This document shows, piece after piece, positions 7,531 to 20,892 of a stretch of DNA of 21,737 bases. Position 1 is the stretch's first letter. Each line of letters begins with the position of its first letter. This DNA comes from a virus. The notes beneath the pieces were generated by a model. The model searched no databases. It was not told the origin of the DNA and worked only from the letters and a program-made list of their open reading frames with translations. Both the position numbers and the translations under genes were made by a program. The stretch is from positions 1 to 21,737 of IMG/VR virus record IMGVR_UViG_3300017989_000484; one strand, 5' to 3'.

Positions 7531-9210
7531 CTACACGCTCGGAGTATTGCACTCGACGGTCTGGCGCGCTCCGATAGCACCGGAGACACACAGCGGGATG
7601 GTCACCAGGATCGACTGGTTGCACCGCTTGCCGACGGCGTAGGCGTCCTCGGTGAAGAACCGCGTGTAGCGGTTCACCTGGAGCTGCTCCTTCGGGTACA
7701 TGACACCCAGCTCGATGACGTTGCTCATCGAGCGGAACCATGTCCCCGCCGGGTACAGCACCACGTCCACGGTGTCGGGCCAGAGCACCGTGTCGAGGTC
7801 ACCGGGCAGGTCGGTGTCCCGCGTCTGCCAGTCGCCGACGAACTGAAGGGCGATGTTCCGCGCCGACAGCCAGCTCGAGATCTGACCGTCGGAGACGGCC
7901 AGGACGTCGAGACCCTCGCGCAGCGCCAGGTCGGCGCGGAGCACCTCGTGGAACCAGCTCGGGGCGATGCCCTCGATGGTGGCGGTACGGGCCAGGCCCT
8001 TCTGGAGACGAAGGTTCGTTGCCATCAGAGCCAGGCTGTTCAGCACCGAAGCCGCCGAGCCGAGAACACTGGTCGGCGGAATCACCTTCGCTGCTCCCGA
8101 ACCGGCCACCACGTCAAGCACGGTGCGGCGGCTGACCGCCCGCAGATGCTCCTGAGCCAGCGAGCGCATGAACCACTCGATCAGCTCGGGCCAGCCCTGC
8201 GTCTGGAGGACTCCCGCCTCGACGCAGTACCCCATCGCGTTGAGGCGCAGCTCGACGAACTCGTCGGGGCACGGAATCTCCACGCAGGCCTTGAACGCTG
8301 TCGGCTCGCCGGTGCCGCTGTCCACTGCCTCGAGTTCGGGCTCGGTGAAGAAGAACTCGAAGGACTCGTAGATCGAGCTGAGATCCGGCTCGACCGGCCA
8401 GCGGATGCCGCCACGGTTAATCGTGATCTCCGGCAAGCTGACCAGGTCAGTCGCACTCGGCACGTCGCAGAAGTCGTACAGCTGCTCGGACGGAGCGCAC
8501 CAGCCACCGGCTGCGGTGAGGCTCCCACCGGGAAGCCGACGCTCGTCGGTGGCCTCGGTGATGGCCGCGACGAGAGCGTGGCTGTCCTCGACCAGCTTCA
8601 CGTCACGGTTGAGCCGTGCGAGAACCTGAGTCGCGAACGAGCCGCGCGCACCGGACGGACGACGCGCGCCGCGCGAACCGGGGCGAACGGAGTCCACCGC
8701 GAGGGCCAGCTCACGGAAGCCGACACGACCGCTGCGGTAACCCGGAGCGCCGGGCACCATCTCCCAGCCGGGACCGGTGGGGCCTTCGGGAGCGTCCACG
8801 GTGCCGACGTTGGCGAACGAAACGGGCGCGTTGCTGTTCGCAGCGACCGGCTCGGTCTCCTCGACGGTTTCGGCTTCAGCCTCGGCCTCGGTTTCCTCGA
8901 CCTCGGCTTCGACCTTCTCGGCCTCGGCTTCGGTCTCCTCGACCTTCTCGGCGGTGGCGGAGGCAGCGCGGTCAAGCAGCTCAGTCACGCTGCTGCGGTG
9001 CGCCTCCTCCTCGGCGGTGGCGGTGGCGAGAGCAGTGCTGAGCTTGTCGACGCTGTCGAGCAGAGAGCGGAGCGCCTCCACGTCGTCGCGTGACAGTTCC
9101 TCACCAGCTTCGTGGCGGGCCTGAATGACATTGATTGACCGCTGGGCCTGTGTCCGCAGCTCCTCGAGCTCCGAGACGGTGGCGGGCAGTTCCTCCGGCA
9201 GAGTGAACAC
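7531..9210 (-). CDS. Major capsid protein with fused scaffold-like N-terminus
   Basis: A 559-residue protein. The start is GTG at 9210, chosen because AAGGAG lies 7 bases upstream (9223-9218); the frame is open further upstream to 9462 but lacks such a site. Residues 1-80 are predicted helical and charged. Residues 82-121 are extremely rich in Glu/Ala/Val/Thr (KVEETEAEAEKVEAEVEETE). From about residue 135 on comes the HK97-fold capsid part: GWCAPSEQLYDF (236-247), PEITINRGGIRWPVE (260-274) and a C-terminal domain with Cys residues. The N-terminal region probably acts as the scaffold (delta domain) and is removed by the upstream-encoded protease. No separate scaffold gene is present. It is the most likely shell protein by context. 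Confidence 0.85.
   Translation of the reverse strand: MFTLPEELPATVSELEELRTQAQRSINVIQARHEAGEELSRDDVEALRSLLDSVDKLSTALATATAEEEAHRSSVTELLDRAASATAEKVEETEAEAEKVEAEVEETEAEAEAETVEETEPVAANSNAPVSFANVGTVDAPEGPTGPGWEMVPGAPGYRSGRVGFRELALAVDSVRPGSRGARRPSGARGSFATQVLARLNRDVKLVEDSHALVAAITEATDERRLPGGSLTAAGGWCAPSEQLYDFCDVPSATDLVSLPEITINRGGIRWPVEPDLSSIYESFEFFFTEPELEAVDSGTGEPTAFKACVEIPCPDEFVELRLNAMGYCVEAGVLQTQGWPELIEWFMRSLAQEHLRAVSRRTVLDVVAGSGAAKVIPPTSVLGSAASVLNSLALMATNLRLQKGLARTATIEGIAPSWFHEVLRADLALREGLDVLAVSDGQISSWLSARNIALQFVGDWQTRDTDLPGDLDTVLWPDTVDVVLYPAGTWFRSMSNVIELGVMYPKEQLQVNRYTRFFTEDAYAVGKRCNQSILVTIPLCVSGAIGARQTVECNTPSV
8848..8949 (-). repeat. Glu/Ala-rich low-complexity repeat within the capsid N-terminal region
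   Basis: The coding strand repeats short GAG-GCC/GTC-type units that encode alternating EETEAEAE and KVEAEV blocks. It is an internal degenerate tandem repeat covering residues 88-121 of the capsid fusion. It probably forms a long charged helix. Confidence 0.6.
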
Positions 9211-9287: not shown

Positions 9288-9989
9288 CTACGGCAAGACC
9301 ATAACTGTGTCCGGTGCAGAGGTGTCGGGATCCCGGCGTTTCACCATGAAAGCGACACGGTTGTCGGTAGGCCGACGAGAGCCCTCGGCTTCGATCCGCT
9401 CGTAGCGACTGTGCCGGTGGAGATACCCGTGGACAGCGAGAGCGCACCCGTCCCAGTACCAATAGTCGTCGATGATGATGAGCCCGCCGGGATTGACGTA
9501 CGGAAACAGTGACTCGAGCACCTCGGTGGTGGACGAGTACCAGTCACCGTCGAGGCGCAGCAGTGCGATGCCGTCCGGATACCCCTCGTCGCCGGGCAGC
9601 GTCTGGGAGAACCACCCGACGTGTGTGCGGTAGTTGTCGACACCGGCGAGCGCCATGGCTTCGATCGCCTTGTCCTCGGAGGCGGCGCAGTTGTGTCCCG
9701 TCACCGCTTGCCACTCCACCGCCGATTGACCGGACGGTGTGCCACCGTCGATGTCCTCAGCGGGCGGGAGTCCACGGAAACTGTCGAACAGGTGGTATCG
9801 GCGCTCGTTGCCGAGCAGGCTGGCGATACCGGCGATCATGCCGCCGCGCCAGACACCGCACTCAACGACGGCTCCTGGCACGTTGCGGGTCTCGAGTGCG
9901 AGCTCAAGGTTCGTCACGTACCGGCGCTCCTTCACCATGGAGTGCCGACGGAATCGCCGCCATACGTCATGCAGTGAGCTGTTCTTCAT
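9288..9989 (-). CDS. TylF/MycF-type sugar O-methyltransferase
   Basis: A 233-residue SAM-dependent methyltransferase. ATG at 9989 overlaps the stop of the previous methyltransferase by 4 bases. Motifs in order: VVECGVWRGGM (41-51, SAM-binding motif I), HLFDSFRGLP (66-75, with the acidic residue after strand 2), LLRLDGDWYSST (143-154) and LIIIDDYWYWDGC (170-182), whose paired Asp residues fit the metal-binding site of the TylF/MycF family. These enzymes methylate hydroxyls of deoxysugars in macrolides and similar glycans; phage copies are thought to act on glycans. Length is close to the family norm. It lies inside the head gene cluster, 77 bases before the capsid start. The family is confident, the phage substrate unknown. 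Confidence 0.85.
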   Translation of the reverse strand: MKNSSLHDVWRRFRRHSMVKERRYVTNLELALETRNVPGAVVECGVWRGGMIAGIASLLGNERRYHLFDSFRGLPPAEDIDGGTPSGQSAVEWQAVTGHNCAASEDKAIEAMALAGVDNYRTHVGWFSQTLPGDEGYPDGIALLRLDGDWYSSTTEVLESLFPYVNPGGLIIIDDYWYWDGCALAVHGYLHRHSRYERIEAEGSRRPTDNRVAFMVKRRDPDTSAPDTVMVLP

Positions 9990-10543
9990 TTGTCGGCCCG
10001 TCGCGTGACGGCCATTCGCCTACCGACCAGTTCCAGCCACGAGAGGCTGCCGTTCAGAACGAGACTGTCAACGGCAGACACAACGCCGGGGAATCGGTCG
10101 TAGTAGTCGTCGAACACCACGGTGGCGTTGTCGGCCAGATGAACGTCCCAGGCCGTGAAGTCCCGCAGCACGGAGTCGTGCGTGTGTTCTCCGTCGATGT
10201 AGAGCAGGCCCACTTTCAGCCCGACCGTCCAGGTCGCTGCCGCGTCGGTGGACAGCGCCCGCTGAAACGTCGCACCTCGGGCGGTCTCCATCGCGATCTC
10301 CATGTCGCGGTGCCGGTAGCGGCGATGCATGTGCGGTCGCCCCTCATAAGCCCCCTCGAGCCCCCAGGAGTCGATGCCGAACACCGGAGCGCCCAGACCC
10401 GCCGCTGCGCCCTCGACGATGACACGCAGCGACCCGCCCTGATAAACACCGATCTCCACGCAGGCCGTGTCGGAGGGCGTCTGAGCCGCGAGTTCTCTCA
10501 GACGTTCGAGCGCGACGATCTCGGTCAGCGTCTCGGTGTTCAT
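9986..10543 (-). CDS. Second SAM-dependent methyltransferase (Methyltransf_24-like)
   Basis: A 185-residue class I methyltransferase. ATG at 10543 overlaps the stop of the small Cys-rich gene by 4 bases, and its own stop overlaps the next methyltransferase. Motifs: ACVEIGVYQGGSL (27-39, SAM-binding), VFGIDSWG (54-61), LLYIDGEHTHDSVLRDFTAW (113-132) and TVVFDDYYDRFPGV (141-154). The 'IDG.H....V..D' stretch and following 'DDY' are typical of the CmcI/TylF-related or Methyltransf_24 group. That group methylates small molecules and sugars rather than DNA. Being coupled to the TylF-like gene suggests a two-step modification of the same target. It could also form a heteromer with it. Confidence 0.8.
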   Translation of the reverse strand: MNTETLTEIVALERLRELAAQTPSDTACVEIGVYQGGSLRVIVEGAAAGLGAPVFGIDSWGLEGAYEGRPHMHRRYRHRDMEIAMETARGATFQRALSTDAAATWTVGLKVGLLYIDGEHTHDSVLRDFTAWDVHLADNATVVFDDYYDRFPGVVSAVDSLVLNGSLSWLELVGRRMAVTRRADK

Positions 10544-15989: not shown

Positions 15990-16433
15990 GTGCTCACCAT
16001 GGCGGACGTCCGGTGCATCGACTGTCTCGCCGAGGGCGTGACGCGCCCTCGCCCGACACCGCACGGAGGGCCTCGGTCGCCGCGATGCGTGACCCATCAC
16101 CGCGCCAAGAAACAGCGGGAACGGCTGCGTGCTCACGAGCTGAAGGTTCAAGCGGGGTACGGCATCAGTGGAGAGCAGTACTGGCAGTTGTACGCCGCTC
16201 AGGACGGCAAGTGCTTCATCTGCCAGCGCGCCACCGGCCAGCGGAAACGGCTGGCGGTCGATCACGAGCACAACAAGGACGGCTGCACGCATCCGCCGGA
16301 GACCGGCTGTCCGGCCTGCGTGCGGGCACTGCTGTGCGGCCCGTGCAATCAGATGATCGGTCGGCTCGGCGTCGCGGCCCTGACACGCGCGATCGACCTG
16401 CTTCAGAATCCACCGGCACAGAGCATTCTGTGA
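15990..16433 (+). CDS. HNH / recombination endonuclease VII-like nuclease
   Basis: A 147-residue protein on the plus strand, opposite to its neighbours. GTG at 15990 (GGAG 4 bases upstream) is the chosen start; ATG at 15999 is also possible. The N-terminus has a CIDC pair (9-12) and C33 with nearby His, possibly a small zinc finger. Then follow YGISGEQYWQLYAAQDGKCF (57-76), a CxxC at 75-78, VDHEH (90-94) and LLCGPCNQMIG (114-124). This is the endonuclease VII/HNH type with the second Cys pair of its zinc site, a nuclease that cuts branched or target DNA. It lies between terminase and a membrane gene in the minus-strand operon, as mobile HNH genes often do. Confidence 0.85.
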   Translation: MLTMADVRCIDCLAEGVTRPRPTPHGGPRSPRCVTHHRAKKQRERLRAHELKVQAGYGISGEQYWQLYAAQDGKCFICQRATGQRKRLAVDHEHNKDGCTHPPETGCPACVRALLCGPCNQMIGRLGVAALTRAIDLLQNPPAQSIL

Positions 16434-16503: not shown

Positions 16504-18146
16504 TATCCGATCCGTCGCTTCAGCCAAGCGGGAGTGTCCACAGGTCGAATCGGAAACGGAGCCGTCATCGTGATCTGGCCCGCACTGAGCGCAGCCAGCC
16601 GATCGTGGGCAATGAGAGCGGCAGCGACACGGTCGGGCTGATGCTGTCCGGACTGCCAGTCCGCCGCCTCCGCCTCGAACACCGCGAGCTTGTGTTCGAC
16701 GGTGCGGCACTTCCCCGTCTCGAACGCCTGCCGCAGCAGCGATGACCGGCCCACCGCGTCGACGGAACCACGTCCGCGCCACTTGTAGATCACGAAGGGC
16801 ATCTGCACGGGAAGTGCCCGCTCCTCCACCGCTGTCAGCGGAGCGCCCCGCTGCTTCTTGGTCACGACCTCGGTGTGCAGATCCTTCCAAGCTCGACGCA
16901 GAACCGCCTCGTACGTCGTCGCCGACGAGTACGCCTCCATCGCGATCTCGCGGGCGTTGACCTCGAGCGCCAGCAGCACCGCCTGCCTGGCCCATTCGTC
17001 AGCCGTCATCTGTCCCGACCAGTCCTCGGTCAGCGTCACGATGCCGTCGCCGCCAAGCGACGCGGCGATGATTCCGGTCTCGTCCCCTCGCCCTGAGTCG
17101 GCAGGGTCCACGCCGACAACGGACGCCACCACGCGTTCGGGAGGCTCGGGGACACGGGTCTCGAACCAGGACCGCATGAACAGCCCACCTGCGGGGTTGC
17201 GTGGACTGCCCTGATACAGCGCGTACCAGACACGCTCACCGATCTTGCGTCTCGTCTGCTCGAACTCGTGCCGCGTACGGCCTCGCGCACTCACCATGAC
17301 CTCGCCCGGCTCTCGGCCCAGCGAGTCGGTGATTCCGTCCTCGGCGATGGCCGGAATGTTGATATGACGCCACGTGCGGTACTGCGGAGCGATCTGCGAC
17401 TCACCGGCGATGATCTGACCGGCAAGGTCCTCGGGATGCCAGCGGGTCTGAATCAGAATCATGCTGGCCTCGGGCGAGAGCCGCGTCTGGGCCACGGAAG
17501 CGAACCATTCGTCGACCTTGCGCCGGTGGCTGGCGCTGTCCGCCTCGATCATGTTCTTGTACGGGTCGTCGATGATGAACAAGTCGGCAGCGCGGCCGGT
17601 GATGGACGAGCCCAGGCCCACGGCGATCATGCCCCCTCGAGCTCCAGCGATCCGCCAGGACTGCACACGGGACGACGTGGTGGACAGCTGAAGGCCCAGC
17701 TTGTCCTCGATGGAGACACCGGTCATGGCGTCGACCACGCCGGAGCCGTGACGGAGGATCAGATCTCGGCAGGCCCGGCTGTGGTCCTCGGCCAGCGCAT
17801 CGCCGTAGGTCGCCAGAATGATCCGTCGGTTTGGATTCAGCTGAAGCGCCCGCAGTGGTGTGAAGATCGCACAGAGCGAGCTCTTGCCCTCCTGCGGCGG
17901 CGTGGTGACCAGCAGGTTGTGGCGCGGCTTGGTCAGTACCACCTCGATCGCGTCGGCGATCATCTTCAGTGCAGGTGTGATGTGGTAGCCCGGATCGACC
18001 GCGTGCGCGAGCTCGGCCGCATTGCTGTAGAGCGTCTTGACACGCTCGCGCGACTGCGAGGCGCGGAGATACTCGAGCATCGCCTGCCTCGCCTCCGGCT
18101 GCCATGAGCTGGAGACGTTGCCGACGACGTCCGGCGAGTACGTCAT
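16503..18146 (-). CDS. terL: Terminase large subunit
   Basis: A 547-residue ATP-driven DNA packaging motor and nuclease. ATG at 18146 overlaps the stop of the glycosyltransferase gene by 4 bases. The ATPase part has a Walker A variant TTPPQEGKSS (81-90) and Walker B LFIIDDP (189-195), followed by a coupling segment with TRWHPEDLAG (234-243). The nuclease part has VVGVDPADSGRGDETG (343-358; the first catalytic Asp is 347), E404 in IAMEAYSS and QPDRVAAALIAHDR (503-516), which supplies the late Asp. Length and motif order are normal, so the enzyme seems intact. No small-terminase gene is visible beside it; the ParB-like gene may take that place or the small subunit may lie elsewhere. Confidence 0.95.
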   Translation of the reverse strand: MTYSPDVVGNVSSSWQPEARQAMLEYLRASQSRERVKTLYSNAAELAHAVDPGYHITPALKMIADAIEVVLTKPRHNLLVTTPPQEGKSSLCAIFTPLRALQLNPNRRIILATYGDALAEDHSRACRDLILRHGSGVVDAMTGVSIEDKLGLQLSTTSSRVQSWRIAGARGGMIAVGLGSSITGRAADLFIIDDPYKNMIEADSASHRRKVDEWFASVAQTRLSPEASMILIQTRWHPEDLAGQIIAGESQIAPQYRTWRHINIPAIAEDGITDSLGREPGEVMVSARGRTRHEFEQTRRKIGERVWYALYQGSPRNPAGGLFMRSWFETRVPEPPERVVASVVGVDPADSGRGDETGIIAASLGGDGIVTLTEDWSGQMTADEWARQAVLLALEVNAREIAMEAYSSATTYEAVLRRAWKDLHTEVVTKKQRGAPLTAVEERALPVQMPFVIYKWRGRGSVDAVGRSSLLRQAFETGKCRTVEHKLAVFEAEAADWQSGQHQPDRVAAALIAHDRLAALSAGQITMTAPFPIRPVDTPAWLKRRIG

Positions 18147-19015
18147 GTCGCGGAGTCATCCACCTTGCGGTATTCGTCGCTCAGAATCTGTGGCACCGCG
18201 AACCGCCACAGGACTCGGTGGTGGATCCGCTGCGAGGAGCCCATGGGCGTAATGATGACGCACGACGGTGCCATCATGACGGTGTAGAACGACTTCAGAT
18301 ACGTGCCATTGTCGCGGTACACGTCGGACATGCCGCCGTCGTTCATCTGCGTCGGAGGCTGGTGCAGCTGAAAGCCGGTGTGCGTGAGCAGCAGCTCGCC
18401 ACGGTTCCCCTGCGTGACGTACGTGTTCACGTCCTCGTTGATACGGCCGACGAACTCGACGGGACGGTCGGTGCGGATGAAGAAGCTGTTCATCGCCTTG
18501 CGGGCGAGCCCCCGCTGGAAGAACCCGCCTCGCTGTGTGCCGCTGATGTAGTCACCGCCCTGCGCGAAGGCGACGGTGAGGGCGTCGGTGTCGTCGAGAA
18601 ACCGCAGGTAGTGGCAGATCACCTCGTCGAGGCTCTTGGTCATGATGTTCTTGAGCTCGTCGCCGATGTTGATTCGATGCGAGAAGTACGTGTAGTCGTC
18701 GTCGAGCTGAATGTGCCACTTCAGGCCGAGGTCGGCCGCGATCTTGCTGGCCGCGTTCCGCGCGTAGACGATCGTGCGCCGGTTGTCGGACTGGTCGGCG
18801 GTGTCGAAGGTCTTGGATATGGCGAGCTTGTCGAACTCGATGACCTGATCTCCGTACCGCTCACGGTACTGCGGGGCGGTCTCGTCCTCGTTGTCGATGA
18901 CGATGTAGATCGGGCCGGTGTACCCGCGCTTACGGAGCGAGTTGTACGTGATGACACGGTCGGGCCTGCCATGCGTGAGGATCAGGGCCGCGAAGCCCTC
19001 GGGGACTCCGCTCAC
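18143..19015 (-). CDS. TET-associated-type glycosyltransferase (TAGT-like)
   Basis: A 290-residue protein, GTG at 19015 overlapping the ParB-like stop (GTGA). Motifs in order: LILTHGRPDR (11-20), IVIDNEDE (38-45), QLDDDYTYF (103-111, the metal-binding DxD), GRINEDVNTY (190-199) and a C-terminal pattern with TQMNDGGMSD (222-231) and GTYLKSFYTVMMAPS (237-251). This matches the phage glycosyltransferase family named for its links with TET/JBP dioxygenases, which is thought to add sugars to hydroxylated bases in DNA. The gene overlaps both the ParB-like gene and the terminase gene by 4 bases, so the product is made with the packaging proteins. No TET or cytosine methylase is in the window. An alternative is a virion protein or envelope target. 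Confidence 0.75.
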   Translation of the reverse strand: MSGVPEGFAALILTHGRPDRVITYNSLRKRGYTGPIYIVIDNEDETAPQYRERYGDQVIEFDKLAISKTFDTADQSDNRRTIVYARNAASKIAADLGLKWHIQLDDDYTYFSHRINIGDELKNIMTKSLDEVICHYLRFLDDTDALTVAFAQGGDYISGTQRGGFFQRGLARKAMNSFFIRTDRPVEFVGRINEDVNTYVTQGNRGELLLTHTGFQLHQPPTQMNDGGMSDVYRDNGTYLKSFYTVMMAPSCVIITPMGSSQRIHHRVLWRFAVPQILSDEYRKVDDSAT

Positions 19016-19818
19016 AGCTCCTCCGGCTGTTCCTCGAGATCCTTCGAGAGCGTGTCGCGGAGCGCGTTGGTCAGCCGGACGTAGCCTTTCTTGATCGCGT
19101 GGTCGAAGTCGATCAGCACGAGTGCCTGATCCTCCATCAGCCGCTGGACCTCGGCGGGTGCGCTCGCGTAGTAGTCCGCGACCTTGTGAAAGTCGATGAC
19201 GGTGTGCCGCTGCGCGGCACGGAGCAGGAACGCGGTCACGTCGTCGGGCAGCTTCGCCTTCGTGATGGCTTTCTCGAGCTCGAGTGTGCGGCTGACGTCC
19301 ATGCACTCGGACAGGTCCGGCGGATCGTCGGTCGGCGTGTAGTGCGGGACCTCGGTCTTGTCGCTGTACTTCGGCGTCGTGTCGGAGGCCCGCTGAAGCT
19401 GGTCGATGTCGGCCTGCGTGTAGCTCAGCCCCTCGAGGTCGTCGCCCATGTCGTTGAGCAGAGACAGCAGCTCGTCGGTGTCGTAGCCGCCCAGCTGGGA
19501 CGTGCGGTTGTCGACGAGCACGATCCGGTTGGCGCGGTCGTCGTCCACGTCGACCCAGTGAACGAGCATCGTGTCCCAGCCCTCGTCGGGATGCTGCTCG
19601 GCCAGGTCGCGGAACGCCATCAGTGTGTGGTTACCGGCGAGCACCTCGTTCTGCCGTCCGGTGTGCGTGCCGATGTTCACCACGATCGGCTTGTACTGAC
19701 CGTGCGCCCGCAGGCTGGCGGCGATGGCCTTGACGTCACCTCGTCTCGGATTCCGGTGGAACGTGGACAGGTCTTTGATCGGTACCGAGGTCGTCGCCCC
19801 GGTCAGCGATGTGGTCAT
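19012..19818 (-). CDS. ParB-like protein with C-terminal phage domain
   Basis: A 268-residue protein, start ATG 19818 (an ATG at 19887 in the same frame is disfavoured, since it would run through the divergent promoter region). Residues 1-120 carry the ParB/sulfiredoxin pattern: VPIKDLSTFHRNPRRGDVKA (12-31), SLRAHGQYKPIVV, VLAGNHTLMAFRDL (59-72), VDDDRANRIVLVDNRT (91-106) and GYDTDELLSLL (111-121). A second domain (about 170-262) has FLLRAAQRHTVIDFHKVADY (197-216) and EVQRLMEDQALVLIDFDHAI (223-242). Phage ParB-like proteins may bind DNA or act as nucleases or NTPases; the GNHT (62-65) replaces the usual Arg-bearing box. It is first in the minus-strand operon, coupled to the glycosyltransferase and terminase, a place where the small terminase often stands. 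Confidence 0.75.
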   Translation of the reverse strand: MTTSLTGATTSVPIKDLSTFHRNPRRGDVKAIAASLRAHGQYKPIVVNIGTHTGRQNEVLAGNHTLMAFRDLAEQHPDEGWDTMLVHWVDVDDDRANRIVLVDNRTSQLGGYDTDELLSLLNDMGDDLEGLSYTQADIDQLQRASDTTPKYSDKTEVPHYTPTDDPPDLSECMDVSRTLELEKAITKAKLPDDVTAFLLRAAQRHTVIDFHKVADYYASAPAEVQRLMEDQALVLIDFDHAIKKGYVRLTNALRDTLSKDLEEQPEEL

Positions 19819-19916
19819 ACGGGAAAGCGTAACCGACAATCGCTGGCCTGCTACGACGGTATGATAGAATGGATCCACGAGCGGCACGGAAGCCGCTCCC
19901 CACGGAAGGAACCGAC
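19819..19916. other. Divergent intergenic region between the minus-strand late operon and plus-strand accessory genes
   Basis: Only 98 bases separate the ParB-like start (19818, minus) from the accessory gene start (19917, plus). The plus-strand leader fills the right half. No convincing -35/-10 pair was found for the minus strand, so the late promoter may be weak, activator-dependent or overlap the plus-strand elements. Confidence 0.5.
19859..19916 (+). promoter_or_regulatory. Leader copy 1: -10 element, 5' hairpin and ribosome binding site
   Basis: GTATGATAGAATGG (19859-19872) contains a -10-like TATGAT (19860-19865); no good -35 is seen. Then comes a hairpin of 7 perfect base pairs (19879-19885 with 19892-19898, 6-base loop), and the ribosome binding segment ACGGAAGGAACCGA (19902-19915) just before ATG 19917. 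The same layout returns at 20899-20957. The hairpin would lie at the very 5' end of the mRNA. Confidence 0.7.
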
Positions 19917-20266: not shown

Positions 20267-20419
20267 ATGAACCGCCCCACCGCCGCCAGCCCGGAGCAGA
20301 TGCGGAACCGGTTGGAGCTGCGCCGTAGTAATGCGGCCCAGCCCCACCGGAACCGCAAGGCCGAGGCGAAGAAGCCGGGCAAGGGTAACCGCAACAACTG
20401 GAAGCGAGAGGTCCGATGA
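20267..20419 (+). CDS. Small basic protein
   Basis: A 50-residue protein with many Arg, Lys and Asn residues (RNRLELRRSNAAQPHRNRKA, then AEAKKPGKGNRNNWKREVR). It begins at ATG 20267, or perhaps at GTG 20261, which overlaps the upstream stop by 4 bases and is better spaced from AGGG. Its stop overlaps the next ATG (20416) by 4 bases. The strong positive charge suggests nucleic acid contact, but no fold was recognised. Confidence 0.6.
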   Translation: MNRPTAASPEQMRNRLELRRSNAAQPHRNRKAEAKKPGKGNRNNWKREVR

Positions 20420-20892
20420 ACCGCTTCGTTCTGCACGCCGACCCGTTCGTCGCCGCTCGGATGCACTGCGACAAGCACGTCGTCAAGATGATCCTCGAAG
20501 AAGCCCAGATGCTGAGCACCGTGCAGCGGGCGCACGGCAATGAGGACGACCGGCTGTATCGGGCCACGCATCGGCACCACCCCTGCACCGTGTGGGCCGG
20601 TGAGAGCGTCGAGAACTATCGGTGGGCGTGGCTCCTCCTGTGCGCGCTGTTGCGTGAGTACGAGTACCGGTACGGCCGCGTCCACCTCACGTCACGGCTG
20701 CGCGACCTGCTGGCAGACCCGCCCGCCGATCTGCCGAGTCGCGGACTGACGCCGTTCCCGCAAGCGATGCCGGAGCAGTTTCGGGGCGACGACCCGGTGG
20801 CTGCGTACCGCCGGTTCTACCTCCTCGACAAGGTTCGGTTCGCTCGGTGGACCCGCAGGTCAGCACCGGAATGGTGGACCGCCGTCGCCTGA
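20416..20892 (+). CDS. Conserved phage protein with HCDKHVVKM motif, function unknown
   Basis: A 158-residue protein starting at ATG 20416 in a 4-base overlap. Signature: MNRFVLHADPFVAARMHCDK (1-20) with HCDKHVVKMI (17-26), ATHRHHPCTVWAGES, NYRWAWLLLCALLREYEYRY (68-87), then LTPFPQAMPEQF and a C-terminal aromatic-rich RFARWTRRSAPEWW. Proteins with the 'HCDKHVVKM...HPC..W...S..NY' pattern are widespread in unrelated phages (including cyanophages), usually annotated as hypothetical. The His, Cys and Asp residues of the first motif look like a metal or catalytic site, but no activity is known to me. Confidence 0.75.
   Translation: MNRFVLHADPFVAARMHCDKHVVKMILEEAQMLSTVQRAHGNEDDRLYRATHRHHPCTVWAGESVENYRWAWLLLCALLREYEYRYGRVHLTSRLRDLLADPPADLPSRGLTPFPQAMPEQFRGDDPVAAYRRFYLLDKVRFARWTRRSAPEWWTAVA

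Follow-up and report, generated by a model that had tools for sequence, protein, structure and literature searches.

The window analyzed here, all 21,737 bases of IMG/VR virus record IMGVR_UViG_3300017989_000484, belongs to a phage that is related to mycobacterial phages, and its head gene cluster contains two overlapping genes for SAM methyltransferases (MT-A and MT-B). Predicted folds, active site, and the gene neighborhoods of their relatives indicate that both are very probably sugar O-methyltransferases. Together with a glycosyltransferase encoded about 3 kb downstream on the same strand and in the same late run, they appear to form a virion-glycan cassette expressed with the head genes, an interpretation to which we assign a probability of roughly 0.6.

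Organization of the Late Genes

The late run lies on the minus strand and proceeds in the following order:

18146-16503, minus strand: terminase
15607-13820, minus strand: portal protein (phrog_776, E 2.3e-241)
13820-10719, minus strand: fusion of a MuF-like protein and the capsid maturation protease (phrog_859, E 7.9e-248)
10719-10540, minus strand: DUF7196 small gene, between protease and MT-A (PF23826, E 4.2e-21)
10543-9986, minus strand: MT-A, predicted Methyltransf_24-type SAM O-methyltransferase (185 aa; ATG at 10543, stop at 9988-9986; frame intact)
9989-9288, minus strand: MT-B, predicted TylF/MycF-type sugar O-methyltransferase (233 aa; ATG at 9989, stop at 9290-9288; frame intact)
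9210-7531, minus strand: major capsid hexamer protein, candidate acceptor (phrog_777, E 2.9e-240; 65.8% to Gordonia phage Ligma gp11)
7439-6666, minus strand: homolog of the major capsid pentamer protein (phrog_779, position, and 52% identity to Ligma gp12)
6651-6265, minus strand: phrog_970 gene
6244-5507, minus strand: Stealth_CR2-like glycosyltransferase (245 aa; phrog_7999, E 1.9e-89)
next after the glycosyltransferase: membrane protein gene (phrog_5552, 'moron' category)
4655-3846, minus strand: major tail (tube) protein, candidate acceptor (phrog_792, E 9.8e-117)

An earlier note on this DNA had described two overlapping SAM methyltransferase genes within the head cluster at 9288-10543, and both open reading frames are present there and intact. 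The note had set them between a protease-associated gene and the capsid gene; PHROGs confirms both flanks, but the DUF7196 gene intervenes before MT-A. The 4-base overlaps that it had described exist at two junctions, the DUF7196 stop with the MT-A start and the MT-A stop with the MT-B start (ATGA in each), but not at the third; the capsid gene begins with a GTG at 9210, 77 bases past MT-B, and has a good ribosome-binding site of its own. The layout suggests co-transcription of MT-A and MT-B with the head genes. NCBIfam profiles gave zero matches when compared with eight proteins of the window.

Two Predicted Sugar O-Methyltransferases

The family names in the earlier note, Methyltransf_24-like and TylF/MycF-type, agree with the profile scores: MT-A matches PF13578 (Methyltransf_24) at E 4e-16 (60.2 bits; gathering cut-off 26.3), and MT-B matches PF05711 (TylF) at E 1e-33 (117.2 bits; gathering cut-off 23). 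Structure prediction, which the note had proposed as a check, yields confident methyltransferase folds for both in AlphaFold2 models (pLDDT 95.2 for MT-A and 90.1 for MT-B). Because the family scores are far over the cut-offs, the catalytic residues are kept, and the predicted folds are confident, the pair is not a product of chance.

The first distinct enzymes found in a fold search of the PDB with MT-B are MycF (Z 23.7, rmsd 2.4 over 202), NovP (Z 24.6, rmsd 2.3 over 203), SpnH (a rhamnosyl 4'-O-methyltransferase; Z 24.9, rmsd 2.1 over 195), and CalS11 (a TDP-rhamnose 3'-O-methyltransferase). The scores of MycF, NovP, SpnH, and the best CalS11 chain range from Z 24.9 to 20.9, and those of all entries for the four enzymes from 24.9 to 18.4, against 18.6 for MeT1 and 16.6 for the first non-sugar enzyme, with catechol-type enzymes at 16.6 or less. 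Residues D147, D174, and D175 of MT-B align with the Asp positions of the MycF motifs LRMDGD and IIDDY, the metal ligands D191, D218, and D219 of that enzyme; D147, D149, D174, and D175 are invariant across 38 sequences in an alignment of relatives. Membership of MT-B in the TylF family is well supported by profile score, Asp triad, and predicted fold. MT-B resembles MycF, NovP, SpnH, and CalS11 in sequence family, fold, and metal-site Asp positions, whereas identity in the structural alignment is 24-33% and those enzymes serve antibiotic pathways with small aglycones.

For MT-A the top fold match in the PDB is MeT1 (Z 20.5, 175 residues, rmsd 3.3), which is also its sole PDB sequence match up to E 1. 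MeT1 is a mycobacterial mannoside 1-O-methyltransferase of the methylmannose polysaccharide pathway (PMC9883506). It is the best match by fold but a weak one by sequence, with 21% identity, and MT-A falls in a separate phage family (phrog_2675). The gap to catechol-type enzymes is narrow (Z 20.5 versus 18.5), and both catechol O-methyltransferases and TrmR occur among the fold matches with Z within 2-3 of the best; given this small lead over other O-methyltransferases, the sugar specificity of MT-A leans more on gene context. PHROGs labels phrog_2675 'DNA methyltransferase'. We rejected this label for MT-A, as it is unsupported by fold or neighborhood; none of the 50 best fold matches of MT-A is a DNA methyltransferase.

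A Probable Partner Glycosyltransferase

The glycosyltransferase at 6244-5507, which was absent from the earlier note, matches PF11380 at E 6.5e-8 with 33.2 bits, under the gathering cut-off of 39.4, and is for this reason named Stealth_CR2-like only. Its homologs occur in 50 records, of which 31 belong to mycobacteriophages, and relatives of MT-A in 31 mycobacteriophage records together with phiAsp2 and Thermobifida phage P1312. The two sets of 31 mycobacteriophage records are exactly the same, and stem from about three lineages. This enzyme is a probable partner of MT-A and MT-B, as judged from the sequence data. No publication on Stealth-type enzymes of actinobacteriophages turned up in a literature search.

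Gene Neighborhoods of the Relatives

Relatives of MT-A are repeatedly found next to glycosyltransferases. The genes for a glycosyltransferase and the MT-A homolog are adjacent in Gaia (gp170/gp171), with an ATGA overlap; in june the two are 1.3 kb apart, immediately ahead of the terminase; and in loci L166/L330, L336, and L372 they adjoin, in both gene orders, with terminase and portal coming after the pair in L166 and L336. In viral contigs, the upstream neighbors of diverse MT-A relatives include Glycos_transf_2 (14 of 38) and Gly_transf_sug (11 of 38), and the downstream neighbor is a phrog_854 glucosyltransferase in 21 of 35. The protease-capsid gene of L187 is directly followed by an MT-A relative, and in phiAsp2 the relative is part of a 596-aa protein that a glycosyltransferase precedes. 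Pas30 of phiAsp2, a capsid neighbor according to the naming in its record, is called a tail protein by PHROGs and was dropped as a head example. In several lineages MT-A relatives adjoin genes for packaging, head, or tail. The earlier note had considered such enzymes unexpected in a head operon; this view calls for qualification, as MT-A relatives are repeatedly encoded, along with a glycosyltransferase, beside genes for virion or packaging proteins, and glycosylation of phage virions has already been reported.

The nearest relatives of MT-B are bacterial, mostly at 44-57% identity (Verrucomicrobia, Bacteroidetes, cyanobacteria, and others), and often adjoin Wzt/Wzt_C O-antigen exporters and further methyltransferases. 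A trio consisting of a Wzt/Wzt_C exporter, a TylF-type methyltransferase, and a second methyltransferase is found in loci L084-L138 from Bacteroidetes, Verrucomicrobia, cyanobacteria, and others; it is a candidate O-antigen methyl-cap module. Phage relatives of MT-B are more distant than the bacterial ones. The best among sequenced phages is Che8-type gp108, a fusion of GT2 and methyltransferase located beside two further glycosyltransferases. TylF relatives in viral contigs lie among glycosyltransferases, GDP-mannose dehydratases, and other methyltransferases, as also seen by eye in L003 and L004. The interpretation of the pair as sugar-modifying enzymes, also put forward in the earlier note, draws good support from the folds, the active site, and these neighborhoods.

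Comparison with Known Virion Glycosylation Systems

Virion glycosylation has been reported in a few mycobacteriophages, where it shields particles from antibodies (PMC12363180); virion proteins of Che8, Corndog, and Myrna are glycosylated (Freeman et al. 2023, cited in PMC12363180 and PMC11600133). Glycosylation of capsid and tail tube is reported for Che8 (PMC12363180), and likewise for Corndog, and Che8 gp110 and Corndog gp38 are described as essential glycosyltransferases (PMC12363180); in cluster O phages, an O-methyltransferase is followed by three glycosyltransferases downstream (PMC11600133). The cassettes of Che8, Corndog, and Myrna resemble the window in having phage-encoded glycosyltransferases in actinobacteriophages, with an O-methyltransferase too in Che8 and cluster O, and the methyltransferase domain of Che8 gp108 is related to MT-B (about 31% over 71%). 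However, the window has two separate methyltransferases, and these are encoded within the head operon, between protease and capsid, whereas the Che8 genes are at the right end of the genome. The window glycosyltransferase, Stealth_CR2-like in type, lacks a match to Che8 gp108-110 at E 1e-5; in a tblastn comparison of the window glycosyltransferases with this Che8 locus (L008) at 1e-5, MT-B alone matched. Because its glycosyltransferase is without a sequence match to those of Che8, the window system is not classed as a Che8-type member, only as one that would work like it. Che8-type glycans are reportedly carried on the C-termini of capsid and tail-tube proteins; comparison with relatives that lack the pair revealed no C-terminal extension of a capsid or tail protein specific to the window phage.

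Gaia (gp170, gp171), the Fionnbharth-type phages, and Boilgate encode a homologous MT-A (42-47%) and a Stealth-like glycosyltransferase (52-56%). The two genes are adjacent on the right arm in Gaia and are located near the genome ends, by the terminase, in the Fionnbharth type and Boilgate; in the window, by contrast, MT-A and the glycosyltransferase are split by the capsid genes and MT-B is added. The MT-B homolog search found no MT-B relative in these phages.

Site of the Methyltransferase Pair

The order portal, protease, small gene, capsid recurs, without methyltransferases, in Gordonia phage Ligma, Skermania phage SPI1, and Mycobacterium phage ChrisnMich, and an IMG/VR control set of 63 capsid loci yielded no match to a methyltransferase or glycosyltransferase profile. 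In direct comparison, the MT-A/MT-B pair is found only in the window phage and duplicate contigs; single-protein searches of IMG/VR with the pair returned one duplicate contig and distant proteins sited among glycan genes. The nearest relative (L017; capsid 85%, portal 79%) has no such pair, although its glycosyltransferase (64%) is present at the equivalent place. Its similarity to the window reaches the last DUF7196 codons and restarts at about the MT-B stop codon, with the leader ahead of the capsid gene conserved. Given this clean empty site, either the window line has gained the pair or L017 has lost it.

Between the DUF7196 and capsid genes lies a permissive, recurrent landing site that holds other inserts, named by eye, in other relatives. 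In L036, L047, L068, L075, and L018-L020 the gap before the capsid gene is occupied by a secreted protein of about 97 aa or, on the opposite strand, by integrase-like genes or HNH-like proteins. A beta-rich, repeat-like module ('SGTPTAGTVDI', 'TGNPNGGGFRL') was also observed past the capsid gene, as a separate ORF, in L021 (7735-8070), L028 (7789-8067), and L077 (913-1188); it is fused to the capsid C-terminus in L012 and L065.

Proposed Role and Alternative Explanations

In the proposed scheme, MT-A and MT-B would be Mg/SAM-dependent sugar O-methyltransferases that form a cassette with the Stealth_CR2-like glycosyltransferase, probably sharing a late transcript with the head and tail genes. 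The glycosyltransferase would attach a host-derived sugar to a protein of the virion, for which the capsid hexamer and the tail tube are the likeliest candidates, and MT-A and MT-B would then cap two hydroxyls (one or two positions) of the glycan or its precursor, leaving the particle coated in methylated glycan. Such a coat may serve in surface shielding or stability; the sugar substrate, virion acceptor, methylation sites, and order of steps are those that we infer. Methylated glycans on virion proteins, the reading offered in the earlier note, are partly supported and constitute the best explanation. If the cassette interpretation is right, a different glycosyltransferase family together with O-methyltransferases does a similar job in Gaia, the Fionnbharth-type phages, Boilgate, and the window phage. 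Several of the carrier phages exist as isolates and can be grown on M. smegmatis, which makes the prediction testable by mass spectrometry. Annotations would also need correction: the MT-A family is called 'DNA methyltransferase' in PHROGs and some records, and the glycosyltransferase is annotated as a hypothetical protein.

Stealth proteins probably transfer a sugar phosphate rather than a plain sugar. It is conceivable, though doubtful, that the Stealth-like enzyme does the same and that the methyltransferases finish the product, giving a methylated phosphoglycan on the capsid by a second, independently evolved route of virion glycosylation; such a route would be unrelated to the Che8 and Corndog glycosyltransferases and used by several actinobacteriophage lineages. 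An unlikely alternative that deserves consideration is that the target of the three enzymes is not the virion but a glycan or glycolipid of the host envelope, modified in the course of infection so as, for instance, to prevent superinfection or re-adsorption to debris. Sugar O-methylation is common on mycobacterial surface glycolipids, bacterial relatives of MT-B occur in surface-polysaccharide export operons, and the phrog_5552 membrane protein gene comes after the glycosyltransferase; however, the methyltransferase genes lie within the late head operon and are coupled by ATGA overlaps, MT-A relatives in several lineages keep company with packaging, head, or tail genes, and the glycosylation reported for Che8 is of capsid and tail tube. 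Direct methylation, without a glycan, of side chains or termini of head proteins or of another small molecule by MT-A or MT-B would be compatible with the many substrate classes served by class I methyltransferase folds and with the closeness of catechol O-methyltransferases and TrmR to the best fold match of MT-A, but appears improbable in light of the glycosyltransferases that recur around MT-A relatives and the clear kinship of MT-B with sugar enzymes.

We consider it very improbable that the pair is a passing insert (moron) with no role in the particle, for which the DUF7196-capsid gap is merely a permissive landing site. The HNH-like, integrase-like, or small secreted proteins in the same gap of other relatives and the occurrence of the pair in 0 of 63 control capsid loci are in keeping with such an insert; against it speak the translational coupling, reading frames that are intact, catalytic residues that are conserved, and the presence of a glycosyltransferase that accompanies MT-A relatives elsewhere. 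Even so, the pair is limited to the window phage and duplicate contigs, and could be a recent, dispensable gain. There is equally little reason to favor hypermodified phage DNA, in which a TET-associated glycosyltransferase (TAGT, 19027-18143) would add a sugar to a base for the methyltransferases to cap. The TAGT gene is indeed present upstream of the terminase (PF20691, E 2.4e-32; phrog_842), and the PHROGs name for the MT-A family would fit, but a TAGT match was found in none of the mycobacteriophages that carry MT-A, whereas all 31 have the Stealth-like enzyme, and for this reason DNA modification via TAGT is unlikely and a link between the methyltransferases and TAGT was rejected. The fold matches of MT-A also speak against a DNA substrate, and no TET/JBP dioxygenase was found among the scanned proteins, which cover part of the ORFs of this 21.7 kb contig.

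Other Features of the Window

A 158-aa protein (20416-20892, plus strand) matches phrog_624, 'DNA binding protein', at E 1.4e-58, with no Pfam match at E 0.01. A ParB-like gene (19012-19887, minus strand) overlaps the TAGT gene (18143-19027, minus strand) just upstream of the terminase, and the same pairing of ParB and TAGT is found in Lactobacillus phages c5 and phiLdb and in Haloarcula hispanica tailed virus 2; the pair could mean hypermodified DNA. Between terminase and portal, on the opposite strand, is an endonuclease VII gene (15990-16433, plus strand; PF02945, E 1.5e-20). Ligma and ChrisnMich have a RuvC-like resolvase at this position, likewise on the opposite strand, apparently a non-homologous swap of the Holliday-junction resolvase at one site.
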